This document shows, piece after piece, positions 1,417-45,241 of a stretch of DNA of 64,000 bases. The stretch spans positions 1 to 64,000 of the forward strand of contig NZ_JACNMO010000025.1 in assembly GCF_020622345.1 (NCBI RefSeq), in the 5' to 3' direction. This DNA comes from Roseobacter weihaiensis (GTDB taxonomy: Bacteria; Pseudomonadota; Alphaproteobacteria; Rhodobacterales; Rhodobacteraceae). Within the stretch, counting starts at the first letter, position 1. Each line of letters begins with the position of its first letter. The position numbers and the translations under genes were made by a program. The notes beneath the pieces are model-generated. The model made no database searches. It had not been told where the DNA came from and worked only from the letters and a program-made list of their open reading frames with translations.

Positions 1417-3834
1417 ATGAGCGATTTTAATGACATGGATGCCTTTGAGGGCGCGTCGCTGTCCGCACGGGCGATGGCGGCCCGCCCGCAACCCTATCTG
1501 GAGGGGCTGAACCCGGCGCAGCGCGCCGCGGTGGAGCAATTGGACGGGCCGGTGCTGATGCTCGCCGGGGCAGGGACCGGCAAGACCCGGGCGCTGACAG
1601 CGCGTATCGTGCATTTGTTGAACACCGGGCGAGCCCGGCCCAATGAAATCCTCGCCGTGACCTTCACCAACAAGGCCGCGCGGGAGATGAAAAACCGGGT
1701 GGGTTTGATGCTGGGCCAGCCCGTCGAAGGCATGCCGTGGCTTGGCACCTTTCATGCGATCTGCGTGAAACTGCTGCGTCGCCATGCGGAACTGGCCGGT
1801 CTGAAATCGAACTTCACCATTCTGGACACGGACGATCAGTTGCGCCTGCTCAAGCAGTTGGTCTTGGCGGCGAATATCGATGACAAGCGCTGGCCTGCGC
1901 GGCAGTTGGCCTCCATCATCGACGGGTGGAAAAACCGCGCGCTGACGCCGGAGAAAGTACCAGCAGCGGATACGGGGGCGTATAACCATCGGGGTGTGGA
2001 GCTGTATGCGCAGTACCAGCGCCGGTTGATTGAGCTGAATGCGACAGATTTCGGCGATTTGCTGTTGCACATGGTCACGATCTTTCAGACCCATGCGGAT
2101 GTGCTGGCGCAGTACCAGCGCTGGTTCCGCTATATCCTTGTGGATGAGTATCAGGACACGAACGTGGCGCAGTACATGTGGCTGCGGCTGCTGGCGGGCG
2201 GGCACAAGAACATCTGCTGTGTGGGCGATGACGACCAGTCGATCTATGGCTGGCGCGGGGCCGAGGTGGGCAATATCCTGCGGTTCGAGACGGATTTTCC
2301 CGGTGCTCACGTGGTCCGGCTGGAGCAGAACTACCGCTCCACCCCGCATATTCTGGCTGCCGCCTCCGGCGTGATCGAGGGCAATCAGGGTCGTCTGGGA
2401 AAGACACTCTTCACGGATGTGAAAGAGGGCGAAAAGGTCCGCCTGATCGGCCATTGGGACGGCGATGAAGAAGCACGCTGGATTGGCGAAGAGATCGAAG
2501 CCGCCCAACGCGGCACCCGCGGGATGGAGAAAGCCGGGCTGGACAGCATGGCCATACTGGTGCGCGCCAGCCACCAGATGCGCGCCTTTGAGGACCGCTT
2601 TCTGACCATCGGCCTGCCCTACCGGGTGATCGGCGGCCCGCGGTTTTACGAACGGATGGAGATCCGCGATGCGATGGCCTATTTCCGCGTCGTGGTCAGC
2701 CCCGACGATGATCTGGCCTTTGAGCGGATTGTGAATACACCCAAACGGGGCCTGGGCGACAAGGCCCAGCAGACCATTCAGATCACCGCGCGCGCCAACG
2801 GGGTGTCCCTGGTTGAGGGTGCGAAACTGGCTGTCGATCAGGGGCTGATAAAGGGCAAGGGCGGCGGCGAACTGCGCCGCCTCGTGGAGGGGATCGCCCG
2901 GTGGCATGCCAAGCTGCGCGGATCTCGGATTGAGACGGTGGCCGAGGGTGATTTGATCGATGACGCAGCGGGCCCCGTCCGTCTCGAAGACACGCCCCCC
3001 TCCATCAGCCATATGGAACTTGCCGAGATCATCCTGGATGAGAGCGGCTACACCGCCCATTGGCAGAACGACAAGACGCCCGAGGCGCCGGGGCGGTTGG
3101 AGAACCTCAAGGAACTGGTCAAGGCGCTGGAAGGCTTTGAGAATCTGCAAGGTTTCCTCGAACATGTCAGCCTGATCATGGACAATGAAAGTGATGACGG
3201 CGGCCAGAAAGTCTCCATCATGACGCTGCATGCGGCCAAGGGGCTGGAGTTTCCCGTGGTGTTCCTGCCCGGCTGGGAAGACGGGCTTTTCCCGTCGCAG
3301 CGCTCCATGGATGAAAGCGGTGTCAAGGGCCTCGAAGAGGAACGCCGGCTGGCCTATGTAGGCATCACGCGGGCCGAAGAGGTCTGCACTATTTCCTTTG
3401 CCGCCAACCGGCGGGTGTTCGGCCAATGGCAGAATTCGATGCCGTCGCGCTTTATCGATGAGTTGCCCGAGGACCACGTGGAGGTGTTGACCCCACCGGG
3501 GCTTTACGGCGGCGGATATGGTGCAGCGGCCCCGCGCAGCACGTTGCACGATCAGGCGGCAGAGGCGAATGTCTATAACTCCCCGGGCTGGCGACGCCTG
3601 CAGGAGCGCAGCCAGAACCGCCCCGTCAGCCAGCCGCGCGAAACCCGGAACACCGTGATCGACATGGCCGCGGCCTCCAGCTTTGTGGTGGGCGAGCGCG
3701 TGTTTCACCAGAAATTCGGCTACGGGGCGATCCAGGGCATTGAAGGTGACAAGCTTGAGATCGCTTTTGAAAAGGCCGGTGTCAAAAACATTGTCGCCAA
3801 ATTCGTGACCGCCGCTGACGACGTGCCGTTCTGA
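1417..3834 (+). CDS. uvrD: ATP-dependent DNA helicase PcrA/UvrD
   Basis: An 805-residue SF1A 3'-5' DNA helicase used in nucleotide-excision and mismatch repair and in clearing RecA filaments or replication blocks. It shows the Q-motif LNPAQRAAV (31-39), Walker A AGAGTGKT (50-57), Walker B VDEYQD (242-247), motif III GDDDQSIYGWRGA, the QNYRS motif IV and the late ITRAEE motif VI. The C-terminal 50 residues (VVGERVFHQKFGYG onward) form the Tudor-like domain of PcrA/UvrD that binds RNA polymerase. An upstream in-frame start exists, but homologous sequence begins only at the ATG at 1417, where MSDFNDMDAF leads into the conserved region. Monocistronic, facing the Hint gene. Confidence 0.93.
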   Translation: MSDFNDMDAFEGASLSARAMAARPQPYLEGLNPAQRAAVEQLDGPVLMLAGAGTGKTRALTARIVHLLNTGRARPNEILAVTFTNKAAREMKNRVGLMLGQPVEGMPWLGTFHAICVKLLRRHAELAGLKSNFTILDTDDQLRLLKQLVLAANIDDKRWPARQLASIIDGWKNRALTPEKVPAADTGAYNHRGVELYAQYQRRLIELNATDFGDLLLHMVTIFQTHADVLAQYQRWFRYILVDEYQDTNVAQYMWLRLLAGGHKNICCVGDDDQSIYGWRGAEVGNILRFETDFPGAHVVRLEQNYRSTPHILAAASGVIEGNQGRLGKTLFTDVKEGEKVRLIGHWDGDEEARWIGEEIEAAQRGTRGMEKAGLDSMAILVRASHQMRAFEDRFLTIGLPYRVIGGPRFYERMEIRDAMAYFRVVVSPDDDLAFERIVNTPKRGLGDKAQQTIQITARANGVSLVEGAKLAVDQGLIKGKGGGELRRLVEGIARWHAKLRGSRIETVAEGDLIDDAAGPVRLEDTPPSISHMELAEIILDESGYTAHWQNDKTPEAPGRLENLKELVKALEGFENLQGFLEHVSLIMDNESDDGGQKVSIMTLHAAKGLEFPVVFLPGWEDGLFPSQRSMDESGVKGLEEERRLAYVGITRAEEVCTISFAANRRVFGQWQNSMPSRFIDELPEDHVEVLTPPGLYGGGYGAAAPRSTLHDQAAEANVYNSPGWRRLQERSQNRPVSQPRETRNTVIDMAAASSFVVGERVFHQKFGYGAIQGIEGDKLEIAFEKAGVKNIVAKFVTAADDVPF

Positions 3835-3840
3835 GGGTTG

Positions 3841-4872
3841 TTATGCTGCCAGATACGCTCTGAGCGTGACCGCTTCTCTGGCGGTCAGCGTTGGTGCCGC
3901 GGTGACCCCAAAACGATCAAGGCCACCTTTGAGATCGGGAAAGAGCCTTTGCAGTTCCCGGCGCGGGCCATCCTCAAGGGTGCCGACCGATTGTTCGGCG
4001 AGAAAGAAGCTCTCTGTCAAAATGCCGTTGGACCGCACGATCTGGTGGTTGTCGAACATGAAATGCGTGTAATGCACCCTTGGCTGCGGGCGCAGCCAGA
4101 TACCGGGCAGGCCGCACAGGTGCTTGGCCGCGACGAGCACGGCGCTTTGACCAAAGTACAGCTCTGCAATCGGGCTTTCGATCCAGATGCGGTGCTGTTG
4201 CGAGACGACAAGCTCTGAGCTGTTGCCCAGAGCCCCTGGCGCAAAGACCACCGGAGCCATCGCCCCGGTTCCGCGGACCACCGCGCTCCCGGTCCATCTG
4301 ACGGGCAGCGGCCCCGACCCATTGGTCCAAACTTCCTGTCCCGGTCGGATCTCTTCAACCGGGAGAGAGCCGGTCGCCGTCTCGATCTGTGTTCCGTTGG
4401 CAAAGCAGGTGACAAGCTGGTTGTACCGCGCATCGCCCGCGTTACTGCCACTGACCTTGACGTAGCTTGTGCCGACTGTGAGCTGTTCAGAGAGGCCAAA
4501 GCCCCAGACATCGCTGAAGTTGCCGTTTTGCGAAAAGATGTAAAGATCGATTTCCGGGCCGGTTGGGTTGCCAGCGCCATCCAGCGCGCGCAGCACGATG
4601 ATCGATTCTGCTTCGACTCCATTGCCATCCGCCACCAGGCCGCCCCCATCGGTGATGATGTGGTCGCCGGGCCGGTCATCGTTGAACCTGTTCCGTCCGC
4701 CTCCCGTATCATCCAGGGTTATTTCCCTGAAGGTGCCGCCGCCAAACTGAAACGTTGTCCCGTTCGGGGTGTTGGAATTGTTGATGATGGGATTGCCGAC
4801 AATGGCACCATTTGGACTGGAAGCCACAATGAGATTTTCGTTATCGATCGCGAAAAACGTTCTGATTGACAT
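3841..4872 (-). CDS. Hint-domain (Hedgehog/intein-type) protein
   Basis: A 343-residue protein whose C-terminal half is a Hint_2-type domain of the kind common in Rhodobacterales. It starts at Cys156 in the CFANGTQIET block and runs through VEEIRPGQEVWT and a VSQQHRIWI segment that looks like the conserved Hint histidine motif. Inteins and Hedgehog proteins use such domains for peptide-bond rearrangement through the first Cys. The N-terminal 150 residues are Gly/Asn/Asp-rich beta-type sequence with no Sec signal peptide, resembling the passenger regions of secreted roseobacter proteins. No export genes adjoin it. Function is unknown; autoprocessing or surface display is inference. It converges on uvrD with six bases between the stops. 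Confidence 0.75.
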   Translation of the reverse strand: MSIRTFFAIDNENLIVASSPNGAIVGNPIINNSNTPNGTTFQFGGGTFREITLDDTGGGRNRFNDDRPGDHIITDGGGLVADGNGVEAESIIVLRALDGAGNPTGPEIDLYIFSQNGNFSDVWGFGLSEQLTVGTSYVKVSGSNAGDARYNQLVTCFANGTQIETATGSLPVEEIRPGQEVWTNGSGPLPVRWTGSAVVRGTGAMAPVVFAPGALGNSSELVVSQQHRIWIESPIAELYFGQSAVLVAAKHLCGLPGIWLRPQPRVHYTHFMFDNHQIVRSNGILTESFFLAEQSVGTLEDGPRRELQRLFPDLKGGLDRFGVTAAPTLTAREAVTLRAYLAA

Positions 4873-5048
4873 GAGGGTTCTCGAAGCTGCGCCTCAGGAC
4901 ATTAGAGCAAATGACCCGGCAAAGACAGCTTGCCCGCCCGCTTTTTAATAATTTGGTAAACATGTCGCCGAAATGCGGCACGCCTCATGCGTGTTCGATC
5001 CCGGCTCGACTTTTTAGAGGAAAGGGACGGTTTTTTAGAGGAAAGGGA
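4873..5048. other. Non-coding region between sRNA locus and Hint gene, with a 20-bp tandem repeat
   Basis: This AT-richer gap holds the likely promoter of the minus-strand Hint gene and the unresolved 3' end of the sRNA transcript. It contains a small hairpin, CACGC-CTCAT-GCGTG (4979-4993), and two head-to-tail copies of a 20-base unit. I see no clear Rho-independent terminator on the minus strand, because the A/T runs here are on the wrong strand for a U-tail. A TTAA-N7-GTAA sequence (4945-4959) is one base from a CtrA box and is not called. Confidence 0.4.
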
Positions 5049-5050
5049 CG
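5011..5050 (-). repeat. Tandem 20-bp direct repeat (2 copies)
   Basis: The unit TTTTTAGAGGAAAGGGACGG occurs at 5011-5030 and again at 5031-5050 with one extra T in the second T-run. The second copy abuts the stem of the last hairpin of the small-RNA array (5049-5081). Read as minus-strand RNA, each copy carries CCCUUUCCUC, a pyrimidine tract that could pair with purine-rich ribosome sites much like the neighbouring hairpin loops. It looks like a recent slippage or duplication event. Confidence 0.8.
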
Positions 5051-5121
5051 GTGGCATCCGGGAGGAGGATAGATGCCACCGCCTTGAAACAGGCATGCCA
5101 GGGAGGAGGGAGGCACGCCTG
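5049..5121 (-). ncRNA. CcsR/cuckoo-type sRNA module 2 (two hairpins with CCUCCUCCC loops)
   Basis: On the minus strand two stem-loops follow each other. The first pairs 5121-5112 with 5099-5090 around a loop containing CCUCCUCCC. The second pairs 5081-5072 with 5058-5049, ten perfect base pairs, around UAUCCUCCUCCCG. In the first stem the only imperfect pair is G-U as minus-strand RNA but A-C as plus-strand RNA, which supports minus-strand transcription. Two hairpins displaying an anti-Shine-Dalgarno CCUCCUCCC loop, placed behind a DUF1127 gene, is the description of the Rhodobacter CcsR RNAs, which are cut from the DUF1127 (ccaF1) transcript. The exact ends are not determinable by eye. Confidence 0.8.
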
Positions 5122-5186
5122 AATGGGTTCCTGTCGCTGTTGTCCAGCTCAGGCGCATGTGACGGATCACATGCTGCTATTGGCTA

Positions 5187-5252
5187 GTGACGGCATCCGG
5201 GAGGAGGATAGATGCCGTCACCAACAAGCGGACACCTCAGGGAGGAGAGGTG
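5187..5252 (-). ncRNA. CcsR/cuckoo-type sRNA module 1 (two hairpins with CCUCCC-type loops)
   Basis: This is the promoter-proximal of two RNA modules, lying just after the DUF1127 stop. Its first hairpin pairs 5252-5247 with 5238-5233 around UCCUCCCU. Its second pairs 5221-5211 with 5197-5187, eleven perfect pairs, around UAUCCUCCUCCCG, the same 13-base loop as in the last hairpin of module 2. The two hairpins are about eleven bases apart, while 65 bases separate module 1 from module 2. This indicates two two-hairpin RNAs rather than four single ones. In Rhodobacter sphaeroides the comparable locus carries four such RNAs, induced by stress sigma factors and acting on C1 and redox metabolism. 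Confidence 0.8.
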
Positions 5253-5269
5253 GCCGAAGTCGTCATGGC

Positions 5270-5500
5270 TCACCGCGCCATGTGTCTGTCCGCAGCCTCA
5301 AGGGCCGCTGTCTTTAGCATTGAGCGGTTCAGGCCGATGTCGGCCAGATCACGCGCGCTCAAGCTGCGCAATTCCATCAAAGACGTGCGATACACGCGGT
5401 GGTGCGCGTGGCGGACCGCCGCGTCTTCGAGCCCCTTTGCCATTCTTGCCAACAGCCATTCGGTGAGGCTGTATGTTTTGTGGTCGTGGTAGTAGGCCAT
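5270..5500 (-). CDS. DUF1127 small protein, CcaF1-like
   Basis: A 76-residue basic protein ending in the arginine-rich DUF1127 (YjiS) block, with MELRSLSARDLADIGLNRS at about 42-60. In Rhodobacter the DUF1127 protein CcaF1 is encoded immediately upstream of the CcsR small RNAs, binds RNA, and affects sRNA maturation and turnover. Here too the gene is followed within 20 bases by two CcsR-like modules on the same strand. The start is uncertain: MAYYHDH at 5500 matches the family N-terminus but has only a weak ribosome site. In-frame ATGs at 5536 and 5533 would add eleven or twelve residues. Transcription presumably continues into the RNAs. Confidence 0.78.
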   Translation of the reverse strand: MAYYHDHKTYSLTEWLLARMAKGLEDAAVRHAHHRVYRTSLMELRSLSARDLADIGLNRSMLKTAALEAADRHMAR

Positions 5501-5578
5501 GATGAGGTGCTCGTGCTCGTCCTTTGTTAACATCATACTTAAGGCAATGCTGCGCTTGCACAATAGGTAGCATGGTCA

Positions 5579-5595
5579 TTGCTGCTATGCAGCAA
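5579..5595. promoter_or_regulatory. 17-bp palindrome upstream of DUF1127 gene
   Basis: TTGCTGC-TAT-GCAGCAA is a perfect seven-base inverted repeat with a three-base centre, 79 bases upstream of the DUF1127 start at 5500 and 123 bases upstream of the mrp start. Its size and symmetry fit a dimeric regulator site. No regulator can be named from sequence, and no convincing RpoH-type promoter was resolved next to it. Confidence 0.4.
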
Positions 5596-5717
5596 GTGCA
5601 TAGGGCTGGAGACAGAAAAAACTGCGTTCTGCCTAAGTTTCAGGCATATGTCCGCCGTTAGTGGTACTCCGGTTTGCAGTTGCTATATGGAGTGGCGGAA
5701 TTGAGGAGTAATTGAGC

Positions 5718-6791
5718 ATGTCTGTGACCAAGGCCGACATCGAGGCAGCCCTCGCGCGCGTCGCGTTACCCGATGGGCGCAGCCTGATTGCGCATGATTT
5801 GATTCGGGCACTGGTCGTTGACGGGGGCTCCGTCCGCTTTGTGATTGAGGCACCCAGCCCCGAAGTTGCCCGCCAGATGGCGCCGCTGCGGGATGCCGCG
5901 GAAAGAGTTGTATCTGAATTGCCCGGTGTCACCTCGGCCTCGGTCGCCCTGACGGCTCATGGACCGGCGGAAAAGAAACCCGCTCCTCCGAATCTGAAAA
6001 TCGGCGGCCATCCCAAACCACAGGCAGGCCCGACAAAACCAAACGGTGTGCAGCGGATCGTCGCCATCGGATCCGGCAAGGGCGGGGTGGGCAAGTCCAC
6101 GGTCTCGTCAAACCTTGCGGTGGCGCTGGCAAAGGCGGGCCGCAAGGTCGGGTTGCTGGATGCGGATATATATGGCCCCAGCCAGCCGCGCATGATGGGG
6201 GTCAACAAGCGGCCCGCCAGCCCGGACGGCAAGACCATCATCCCGCTGCACGCCCATGGGGTGACGCTGATGTCCATCGGCTTCATGATGGAGGAGGGCA
6301 AGGCGGTGGTCTGGCGTGGCCCGATGCTGATGGGCGCGTTGCAGCAGATGCTGGGGCAGGTGGAGTGGGGCGCGCTTGACGTGCTGCTTGTCGATCTGCC
6401 CCCTGGCACCGGCGATGTGCAACTGACCCTCTGCACCAAATCCGAACTGACCGGGGCCATCATCGTGTCGACACCGCAGGATGTGGCGCTGATCGATGCG
6501 CGCAAGGCGCTTGATATGTTCGACACGCTGAAAACGCCGGTGCTGGGGTTGATCGAGAACATGTCGATGTTCGTCTGCCCTGATTGCGGGTCGGAGCATC
6601 AGATCTTCGGGCAGGGTGGGGTCGCGGCCGAAGCCGACAGGCTTGGTGTGCCGCTGCTGGGCGCTTTGCCGATTGATCTGGACACCCGGCTGGCGGGGGA
6701 CGGTGGCACGCCGATTGCAGCTCAGGGCGGTGCGATGGCGGAGGCCTACGCGCGTATTGCCGATAGTCTGATCAAGCGCGGGGTCGCATGA
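5718..6791 (+). CDS. apbC: Mrp/ApbC-type iron-sulfur cluster carrier ATPase
   Basis: A 357-residue MinD/NBP35-type P-loop ATPase that carries [4Fe-4S] clusters to apoproteins. Residues 1-80 form the MIP18/DUF59 domain, followed by a Pro/Lys linker and the deviant Walker [11 protein letters not shown] (119-128), the [10 protein letters not shown] switch, a VDLPPGTGD Walker B and the CPDC pair near residue 280 that binds the bridging cluster between two subunits. Length is normal for the domain-fused form. GAGGAG at 5703-5708 sits nine bases before the ATG at 5718, preferring it over the TTG at 5712. Its 5' neighbour is divergent; the downstream gene converges. Confidence 0.92.
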
Positions 6792-45142: not shown

Positions 45143-45165
45143 ACGCAGGGCTCACCCAAGCACAC

Positions 45166-45239
45166 GACCTCCCTCCGCCAGCATTATCCGGTTCAGGTTC
45201 AAAGGGTACATCTCAGCTTTGCAGCGCCCCTGGTAGGTC
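45166..45239 (-). promoter_or_regulatory. TPP riboswitch (THI element) upstream of thiM
   Basis: On the minus strand the segment contains the pyrimidine-sensing core GGGGCGC...CTGAGA and the 3' core ACCCTTTGAACCTG...GGATAATGCTGGCGGAGGGA, with P1 formed by GACCT (45239-45235) and AGGTC (45170-45166). The stem normally extending the CUGAGA arm is minimal here. All invariant thi-box bases that I can check are present. It should shut off thiM-thiE-thiD-tenA when thiamine pyrophosphate is abundant. Confidence 0.95.
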
Positions 45240-45241
45240 TA

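Follow-up and report, generated by a model that had tools for sequence, protein, structure and literature searches.

Organization of the locus

On the minus strand of the window, the whole stretch of 64,000 nucleotides that was analysed, a promoter element (5600–5547), a DUF1127 gene (5500–5270) and two pairs of stem-loops (5256–5183 and 5121–5047) follow one another in 5' to 3' order (Table 1). The DUF1127 gene, whose ATG was picked by eye, ends 13 nt before the hairpin array. The original prediction had placed four minus-strand stem-loops displaying an anti-Shine-Dalgarno (anti-SD) motif, or a one-base variant of it, directly behind a DUF1127 gene. Both parts of it were borne out, the former by three exact CCUCCUCCC loops and one variant and the latter by the PF06568 match of 37.3 bits at 5500–5270. 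The coordinates given at that time, 5049–5500, covered the gene and the hairpins, but the conserved promoter lies outside them.

Table 1. Features of the DUF1127-hairpin locus and its divergent neighbour in the window
Feature	Position	Strand	Remarks
First TGCA-N6-GCAT box, LsrB/VtlR-type	5587..5600	-	exact; about -72 if TTGTGC is the -35
Conserved element GCATAGCAGCAATG-N12-ATTGTGCAAGCGCAGCA	5548..5590	-	sole match in own genome
Putative -35 TTGTGC (5563-5558) and overlapping second TGCA-N6-GCAT box (5560-5547)	5547..5563	-	-35 inferred
DUF1127 small protein, CcaF1-like	5270..5500	-	PF06568 37.3 bits, cut-off 23.3; 76 aa from ATG at 5500
Hairpin 1	5229..5256	-	variant loop UCUCCUCCC
Hairpin 2	5183..5225	-	loop AUCCUCCUCCC, 16 pairs
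Spacer hairpin GCATGTGA-TCCG-TCACATGC between modules	5155..5174	-	sequence and fold; no anti-SD loop
Hairpin 3	5090..5121	-	CCUCCUCCC within loop
Hairpin 4	5047..5083	-	loop AUCCUCCUCCC, 13 pairs; possible weak terminator
mrp/apbC (NUBPL-type P-loop NTPase)	5712..6791	+	PF10609; divergent, flanks promoter

A Hint-domain gene (4872–3841, minus strand) lies about 175 nt beyond the hairpin array. In all 91 loci with a Mrp match, out of 117 named loci covered, Mrp was divergent and within 1.5 kb of the element. The nearest loci by Mrp among the matches listed were those of Roseobacter sp. MH60115 and Roseobacter insulae (L220 and L223), at about 90%. The DUF1127 operon is also about 3 kb from apparent MraZ and MraW frames (window 5500 versus 8153 onward), which we take to belong to the dcw cluster. 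In Rhodobacter sphaeroides, the sRNA UpsM derives from the dcw 5' UTR (PMC8625941). Elsewhere in the window, a TPP riboswitch was found at 45153–45241 on the minus strand, with a score of 66.2 bits that is over its cut-off.

Hairpins of the window and their assignment

The exact 9-mer CCTCCTCCC occurs at 5199–5207, 5101–5109 and 5060–5068, and its variant TCTCCTCCC at 5240–5248. Within 64 kb the exact 9-mer is mildly unusual (3 versus 0.72 expected, a count reached in 5 of 100 shuffles), and with one mismatch it is ordinary (22 versus 21.4 expected). On these figures, significance from the 9-mer count alone was rejected. The significance of the locus is in clustering and structure instead. The minus strand of the array (236 nt) folds with −110.1 kcal/mol (z −7.4, equalled by none of 200 shuffles), the plus strand with −99.6 (z −2.8, equalled by one of 200). 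Because the minus strand folds better against its shuffles than the plus strand, the minus orientation first proposed for these hairpins is supported. Hairpins 2 and 4 had been said to share an identical 13-base loop. The sharing is real and larger in extent than that: 25 identical bases are common to both, and two pairs have changed in a compensatory manner (A-T to G-C and C-G to T-A). A search of the locus revealed no clear terminator and one weak terminator-like site at 5059–5046, versus a shuffle mean of 0.9. Directly 3' of the last hairpin (window 5051–5011, minus strand), CCGTCCCTTTCCTCTAAAAA is present twice with one extra A between the copies, and several relatives have a T-run at the corresponding place.

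Cuckoo RNAs are defined by adjacent hairpins with CCUCCUCCC loops, and a family with varying hairpin number has been proposed for them (PMC3927594). The window has four adjacent hairpins, of whose loops strictly three are exact CCUCCUCCC, together with the short DUF1127 gene (PF06568 at 5500–5270) with which cuckoo RNAs of the CIN1 kind are associated. The best Rfam matches of the hairpin modules were CcsR1 and ar14, which are cuckoo RNAs. The CcsR1 model (RF02791) scored 48.8 bits over 5125–5043 and 33.0 bits over 5261–5182, below its gathering score of 65.3, and the ar14 model (RF02344) scored 39.6 and 33.9 bits, below its gathering score of 58.8. The covariance-model check suggested by the original prediction thus returned the expected families as top matches but at scores under both cut-offs, and for that reason the locus was not filed under either model. 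Of 12 related loci submitted to Rfam, three passed the ar14 cut-off and none that of CcsR1; the two models are therefore narrow for these arrays. When the whole genome was scanned with CcsR1, the two modules came first among 15 matches, with E-values of 1.3e-10 and 6.1e-6, and the third had 0.118; thus there were no scattered strong copies elsewhere in the genome at E below 0.1. The locus agrees with CcaF1-CcsR (PMC10253847) in protein family, pairing of the hairpins, loop motif, strand and order, as had been anticipated. It belongs, as a short member, to the CcaF1-CcsR/cuckoo RNA (CIN1) kind and is, taken by itself, an ordinary representative of a known RNA family.

Hairpin arrays across the Rhodobacteraceae

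The family was sampled with 149 genomes, one per genus and own genome included. In 107 of them, exact loops formed one or more pairs at hairpin spacing, and DUF1127 relatives were found at E 1e-5 in 80, own genome included. Among the 29 loci that the DUF1127 search yielded in other genomes (L010–L038, about 3 kb considered), 27 had at least two exact loop motifs, one had a single motif and one had none. The array set comprised 104 rows, of which 85 were distinct, with a few genomes contributing two. These 85 arrays ranged from 2 to 17 hairpins with a median of 8, counts that are underestimates, some arrays having shortened loops. A 2015 abstract on cuckoo RNAs reportedly gives 2 to 4 hairpins. 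The two modules of the window, as opposed to four in R. sphaeroides, had been regarded as a notable departure; with 4 hairpins in a family range of 2–17, this is no longer tenable. For 77 of the 85 distinct arrays, a DUF1127 gene of the same strand lay no more than 320 nt upstream; many of the 85 had been selected via DUF1127. When 30 loci were chosen by loop pattern only, 27 qualified as arrays, and 22 of these 27 had DUF1127 just upstream on the same strand. Some family arrays were without DUF1127.

A strong stem of its own accompanied 536 of the 568 exact motifs in arrays (mean score 25.8). When arms were swapped within the same arrays, 40% of 4410 combinations gave a strong stem (mean 14.7), and exact motifs outside arrays had one in 6 of 33 cases (mean 12.1). 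Own arms pair far better than swapped arms; the stems are therefore maintained while the loops stay constant, and the conservation of the stems in relatives, on which the original prediction had staked its reading, was upheld.

Several loci showed additional features. In L032 (G007:C6), four DUF1127 frame matches surround one eight-hairpin array, one of them upstream and three downstream. In L074, a cobalamin riboswitch (1511–1706, minus strand) is positioned just past the hairpin array on the opposite strand. Moreover, three-hairpin clusters with strong stems were identified in viral contigs of IMG/VR (L277–L338), in 46 of the 62 stretches having three exact loops. Of six such clusters searched against Rfam, four reached the ar14 cut-off with 80–109 bits; NfeR1-like RNAs therefore occur in (pro)phage contigs.

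A conserved promoter element

An element of about 55 bp, both boxes included, precedes most family arrays. It was first noticed in DUF1127-free loci, whose upstream sequence is shared with the element of the window. Its gapped pattern was found in 101 of the 149 family genomes, as a single copy in 98, and the reversed control in none of the 149. Allowing up to 3 mismatches and up to 900 nt upstream, the 15-base core was present before 75 of the 85 distinct arrays, and TTGTGC followed within 35 nt in 71 of the 75; after simple shuffling of the upstream regions, the mean number of mismatches to this core was 5.0 to 6.1. Two one-mismatch copies of the core exist in the own genome, both within reading frames. 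Element and loop pairs occurred together in 90 of the 149 genomes, with array only in 17, element only in 11 and neither in 31 (Fisher p 3e-11, a value that ignores relatedness). Thus 17 of the 107 genomes with loop pairs had no element, and the strict element was absent from 16 of the 85 distinct arrays, 11 of these with DUF1127. Of the 11 element-only genomes, six had arrays as defined here (L389, L390, L391, L394, L070 and L096), four had hairpins with shortened loops as judged by eye (L392, L393, L395 and L397), and in G147 a contig end cuts the locus.

Beyond the family sample, the pattern was searched for in 385 genomes of the class and gave 3 matches, from three of the five family members drawn, and none among the 380 others. 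In named genomes, at least 117 stretches carried the element, and 80 titles among the matches listed were Rhodobacterales names or unclassified bins. Of 118 elements among the named-genome matches listed, 29 had less than 1.5 kb downstream, and an array was present in 84 of the 89 others. In two genomes, G048 (L398/L399) and G094 (L400/L401), the locus is split into a DUF1127 gene that has no array and an array of two exact loops that has no DUF1127 gene, each behind an element of its own, a pattern that co-regulation by one factor would give.

Of 88 distinct elements, 84 had TGCR-N6-GCAT, and in these the motif always started 36 or 37 nt ahead of TTGTGC. Since the pattern selecting the 88 elements fixed GCAT and TTGTGC, independent evidence comes only from the TGCR half and from the tight spacing. 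The second TGCA-N6-GCAT box was exact, over the −35, in 55 of the 88. A consensus scan of window 4800–5720 found no sigma-70 consensus promoter, and the presumed −10 of the window copy reads CTTAAG.

A candidate LysR-type regulator

In Sinorhizobium meliloti, LsrB activates NfeR1, an ar14 RNA, from TGCA-N6-GCAT at −72 to −60 (PMC10746234). The first box of the window has the same sequence as this site and stands at about −72 only if TTGTGC is the −35. The VtlR box of Agrobacterium and Brucella has been given as GCAT-N3-TG-N3-T (PMC7486931, PMC8844928). The window deviates from it, reading GCATAGCAGCAAT with AG for TG, and among the 88 distinct elements the box was exact in 6 while AG replaced TG in 68. 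Compared with the Brucella 15-mer, which is on the other strand (PMC12595884), 21 of the 88 were one base off, 52 two, 11 three and 4 four, the window copy being three bases off. In Brucella, VtlR activates three DUF1127 genes (PMC12595884), and in Agrobacterium it binds upstream of atu1667, at the promoter of this gene for a small protein (PMC7486931). The LsrB/VtlR gene adjoins trxB (PMC11975290, PMC7486931). LsrB has been called unique to Rhizobiales (PMC11975290), and the trxB-vtlR order has been described as conserved across the class (PMC7486931). Control of AbcR1 by LsrB in S. meliloti is disputed, with one report against it (PMC7486931) and another for it (PMC8844928).

With an 8-row alignment of trxB-linked LysR genes from class-wide genomes as query, one strong LysR match (E 1e-75 or better) was obtained in 144 of the 149 family genomes, including the own genome (G000:C79:52367–53233). 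The LysR domains of the latter copy were confirmed; it shares 42–51% identity with the eight trxB-linked seeds and is on a separate contig from trxB. In the 20 family loci fetched, trxB was never beside the LysR relative (within about 1.5 kb), and no LysR was found near trxB of the own genome, whose fetched neighbour frames look by eye like an Lrp regulator and a P450. NCBIfam gave no model over its cut-off for the three proteins submitted. Orthology of the family's LysR relative to LsrB is plausible but putative. No published link between LsrB and CcsR was found in the literature covered, which did not include the main papers on CcsR, CcaF1 and cuckoo RNAs.

Because of the missing trxB linkage and the identity of 42–51%, we lowered our confidence in the class-wide circuit proposed below and, slightly, in the main reading, and raised it in sigma-factor control. 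In the latter case, RpoHI and RpoHII would exert control of heat-shock type without LsrB, and the element would be the site of another LysR-type or of an unrelated regulator. This is a real possibility, though we hold it to be somewhat less probable than not. A RpoHI/RpoHII promoter precedes ccaF1-CcsR in R. sphaeroides (PMC10253847), and in many relatives of the window locus CCTATCTT is found 3' of TTGTGC, near the RpoH1 −10 CCTATAT (PMC8844928). Moreover, TGCA-N6-GCAT is an instance of the generic T-N11-A LysR motif, and the first box alone is unspecific, occurring 7 times on the minus strand of the window. However, the element begins some 37 bp before the presumed −35, which would be past the reach of a sigma factor, and it stands before both halves of the split loci. 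The agreement of the first box with the nfeR1 site in sequence and, on the presumed −35, in position and the near-universal presence of a close LysR relative in the family also argue for an LsrB/VtlR-type regulator.

Candidate mRNA targets

In the own genome, GGGAGGAG followed by ATG at 3–12 nt was found 32 times, versus 8 for the reversed control. Two of the 32 sites are the complement of the array. Of the other 30, 20 were examined as proteins, and of the 10 left out, eight were frames of fewer than 45 residues, the others having 73 and 108. Family matches identified 17 of the 20 candidate target proteins in this search, which went by sequence match to one 8-mer alone. Five belong to solute-binding families (L134, L140, which is NMT1-like, L142, L149 and L416) and three fit C1 oxidation, including a PQQ dehydrogenase of the methanol/ethanol family (L150) and the start of a glutathione-dependent formaldehyde dehydrogenase (L147, 42 residues only, at a contig end). 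Two are response regulators (L148, LuxR-type, and L133). In the own genome, L148 is at C30:8155, L147 at C30:125 and L150 at C31:32735, and a DctP among the candidates is at C24:135976. Further candidates are DctQ, a FadL-type outer-membrane protein, the start of an acetate-CoA ligase and an acyl-CoA ligase nearest to methylthiopropionyl-CoA ligase; the remaining ones are a transposase, DUF2189, DUF2147 and a ribbon-helix-helix protein. In R. sphaeroides, flhR mRNA is a target of the CcsR RNAs (PMC8307010). L148 may be the local FlhR, because it shares contig C30 with L147, quinoprotein accessory genes, a hybrid kinase and a FIST protein.

The control Shine-Dalgarno sequence AAGGAGGT gave 15 sites. 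Nine of the proteins were searched and seven had a family match; there was no solute-binding protein among these seven, and there were three other ABC-transporter parts. A search with the 9-mer GGGAGGAGG gave 5 matches, two of which were the array's own complement. The agreement of the candidate targets with published targets of CcsR and NfeR1 is suggestive, the sets being small and a pointer only.

Proposed mechanism

Transcription would start from a single promoter just upstream of about 5530 and give a transcript with the DUF1127 open reading frame followed by two two-hairpin RNAs. These RNAs would be excised from the 3' untranslated region, as is done by RNase E and CcaF1 in R. sphaeroides. 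The loop CCUCCUCCC is predicted to act as an anti-SD seed that pairs with ribosome-binding sites of GGGAGGAG type, and this pairing would silence mRNAs of solute-binding proteins and C1-oxidation enzymes. The repeated hairpins would be redundant copies of a single seed, and hairpin number perhaps sets the dose. The switch is probably a redox regulator of LysR type, akin to LsrB/VtlR, that would bind the promoter at about −72 and act alone or with RpoH. The whole reading, an operon of CcaF1-CcsR type with trans-acting seeds and with LysR redox control as its probable switch, is in our judgement likely to be right. A point against it is that DUF1127 proteins elsewhere reportedly act by binding to the kinase PhoR and not to RNA (PMC12501420).

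Instead of providing trans-acting antisense RNAs, the hairpins might mainly serve to process or stabilize the DUF1127 mRNA, or titrate the DUF1127 protein. Their position directly 3' of the DUF1127 gene and their highly variable copy number, as for a titrator, would fit such a role, and CcaF1 reportedly binds RNA and participates in CcsR maturation (PMC10253847). We consider this role improbable, since the loops are near constant while the stems vary with compensation, some arrays have no DUF1127, and NfeR1, which is of cuckoo type, silences ntrB via its loops (PMC10746234). That the hairpins arose by chance or are a mobile GC-rich inverted repeat, i.e., a REP-like DNA element, is very hard to credit and was rejected: GC-rich intergenic DNA commonly has inverted repeats and hairpins 2 and 4 are near-identical, but the own genome has a single strong locus, the mrp neighbourhood is conserved, the fold is strand-biased, and the strand and the short gap 3' of DUF1127 are constant in most relatives.

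Extended from the CcaF1-CcsR-type operon of the window to the class, the proposal would be a circuit in which a redox regulator of LsrB/VtlR type stands over DUF1127 proteins and anti-SD RNAs, in Rhodobacteraceae too. There, its outputs would be fused into one operon, and the dose set by the tandem array (2 to 17 hairpins) would tune C1 oxidation and solute uptake under oxidative stress. We advance this circuit tentatively and rate its chances at just short of even. The promoter element may connect two literatures, that on ccaF1-CcsR in Rhodobacter and that on LsrB/VtlR-AbcR-NfeR1 in rhizobia. In addition, arrays with 2 to 17 near-equal seeds form a natural series on RNA dose versus copy number.

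Comparison with known systems

Similar to ccaF1-CcsR1-4 of R. sphaeroides (CIN1), the window locus has a DUF1127 gene and, behind it in the same orientation, two-hairpin RNAs whose loops display CCUCCUCCC. Different from ccaF1-CcsR1-4, it has two modules instead of four, a variant loop, an extra spacer hairpin and no clear terminator. With NfeR1/ar14 of S. meliloti it shares adjacent hairpins with anti-SD loops, the ar14 match and a TGCA-N6-GCAT box, here at a presumed position of about −72; NfeR1 itself has three hairpins and a sigma-70 promoter with an NtrC site, and no DUF1127 gene figures in the description consulted (PMC10746234). The locus also resembles the LsrB/VtlR regulon of Rhizobiales, in which one LysR regulator, acting through a similar box, controls the sRNAs AbcR and NfeR1 and, in Brucella, DUF1127 genes (PMC12595884). 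Different from that regulon, most elements identified here are one base off GCAT-N3-TG-N3-T, and the candidate regulator is a relative whose orthology is putative. Moreover, the genes of the LsrB/VtlR regulon (AbcR RNAs, VrsA and small proteins) are separate, whereas most family loci identified in this study join small-protein gene and RNAs in one unit.
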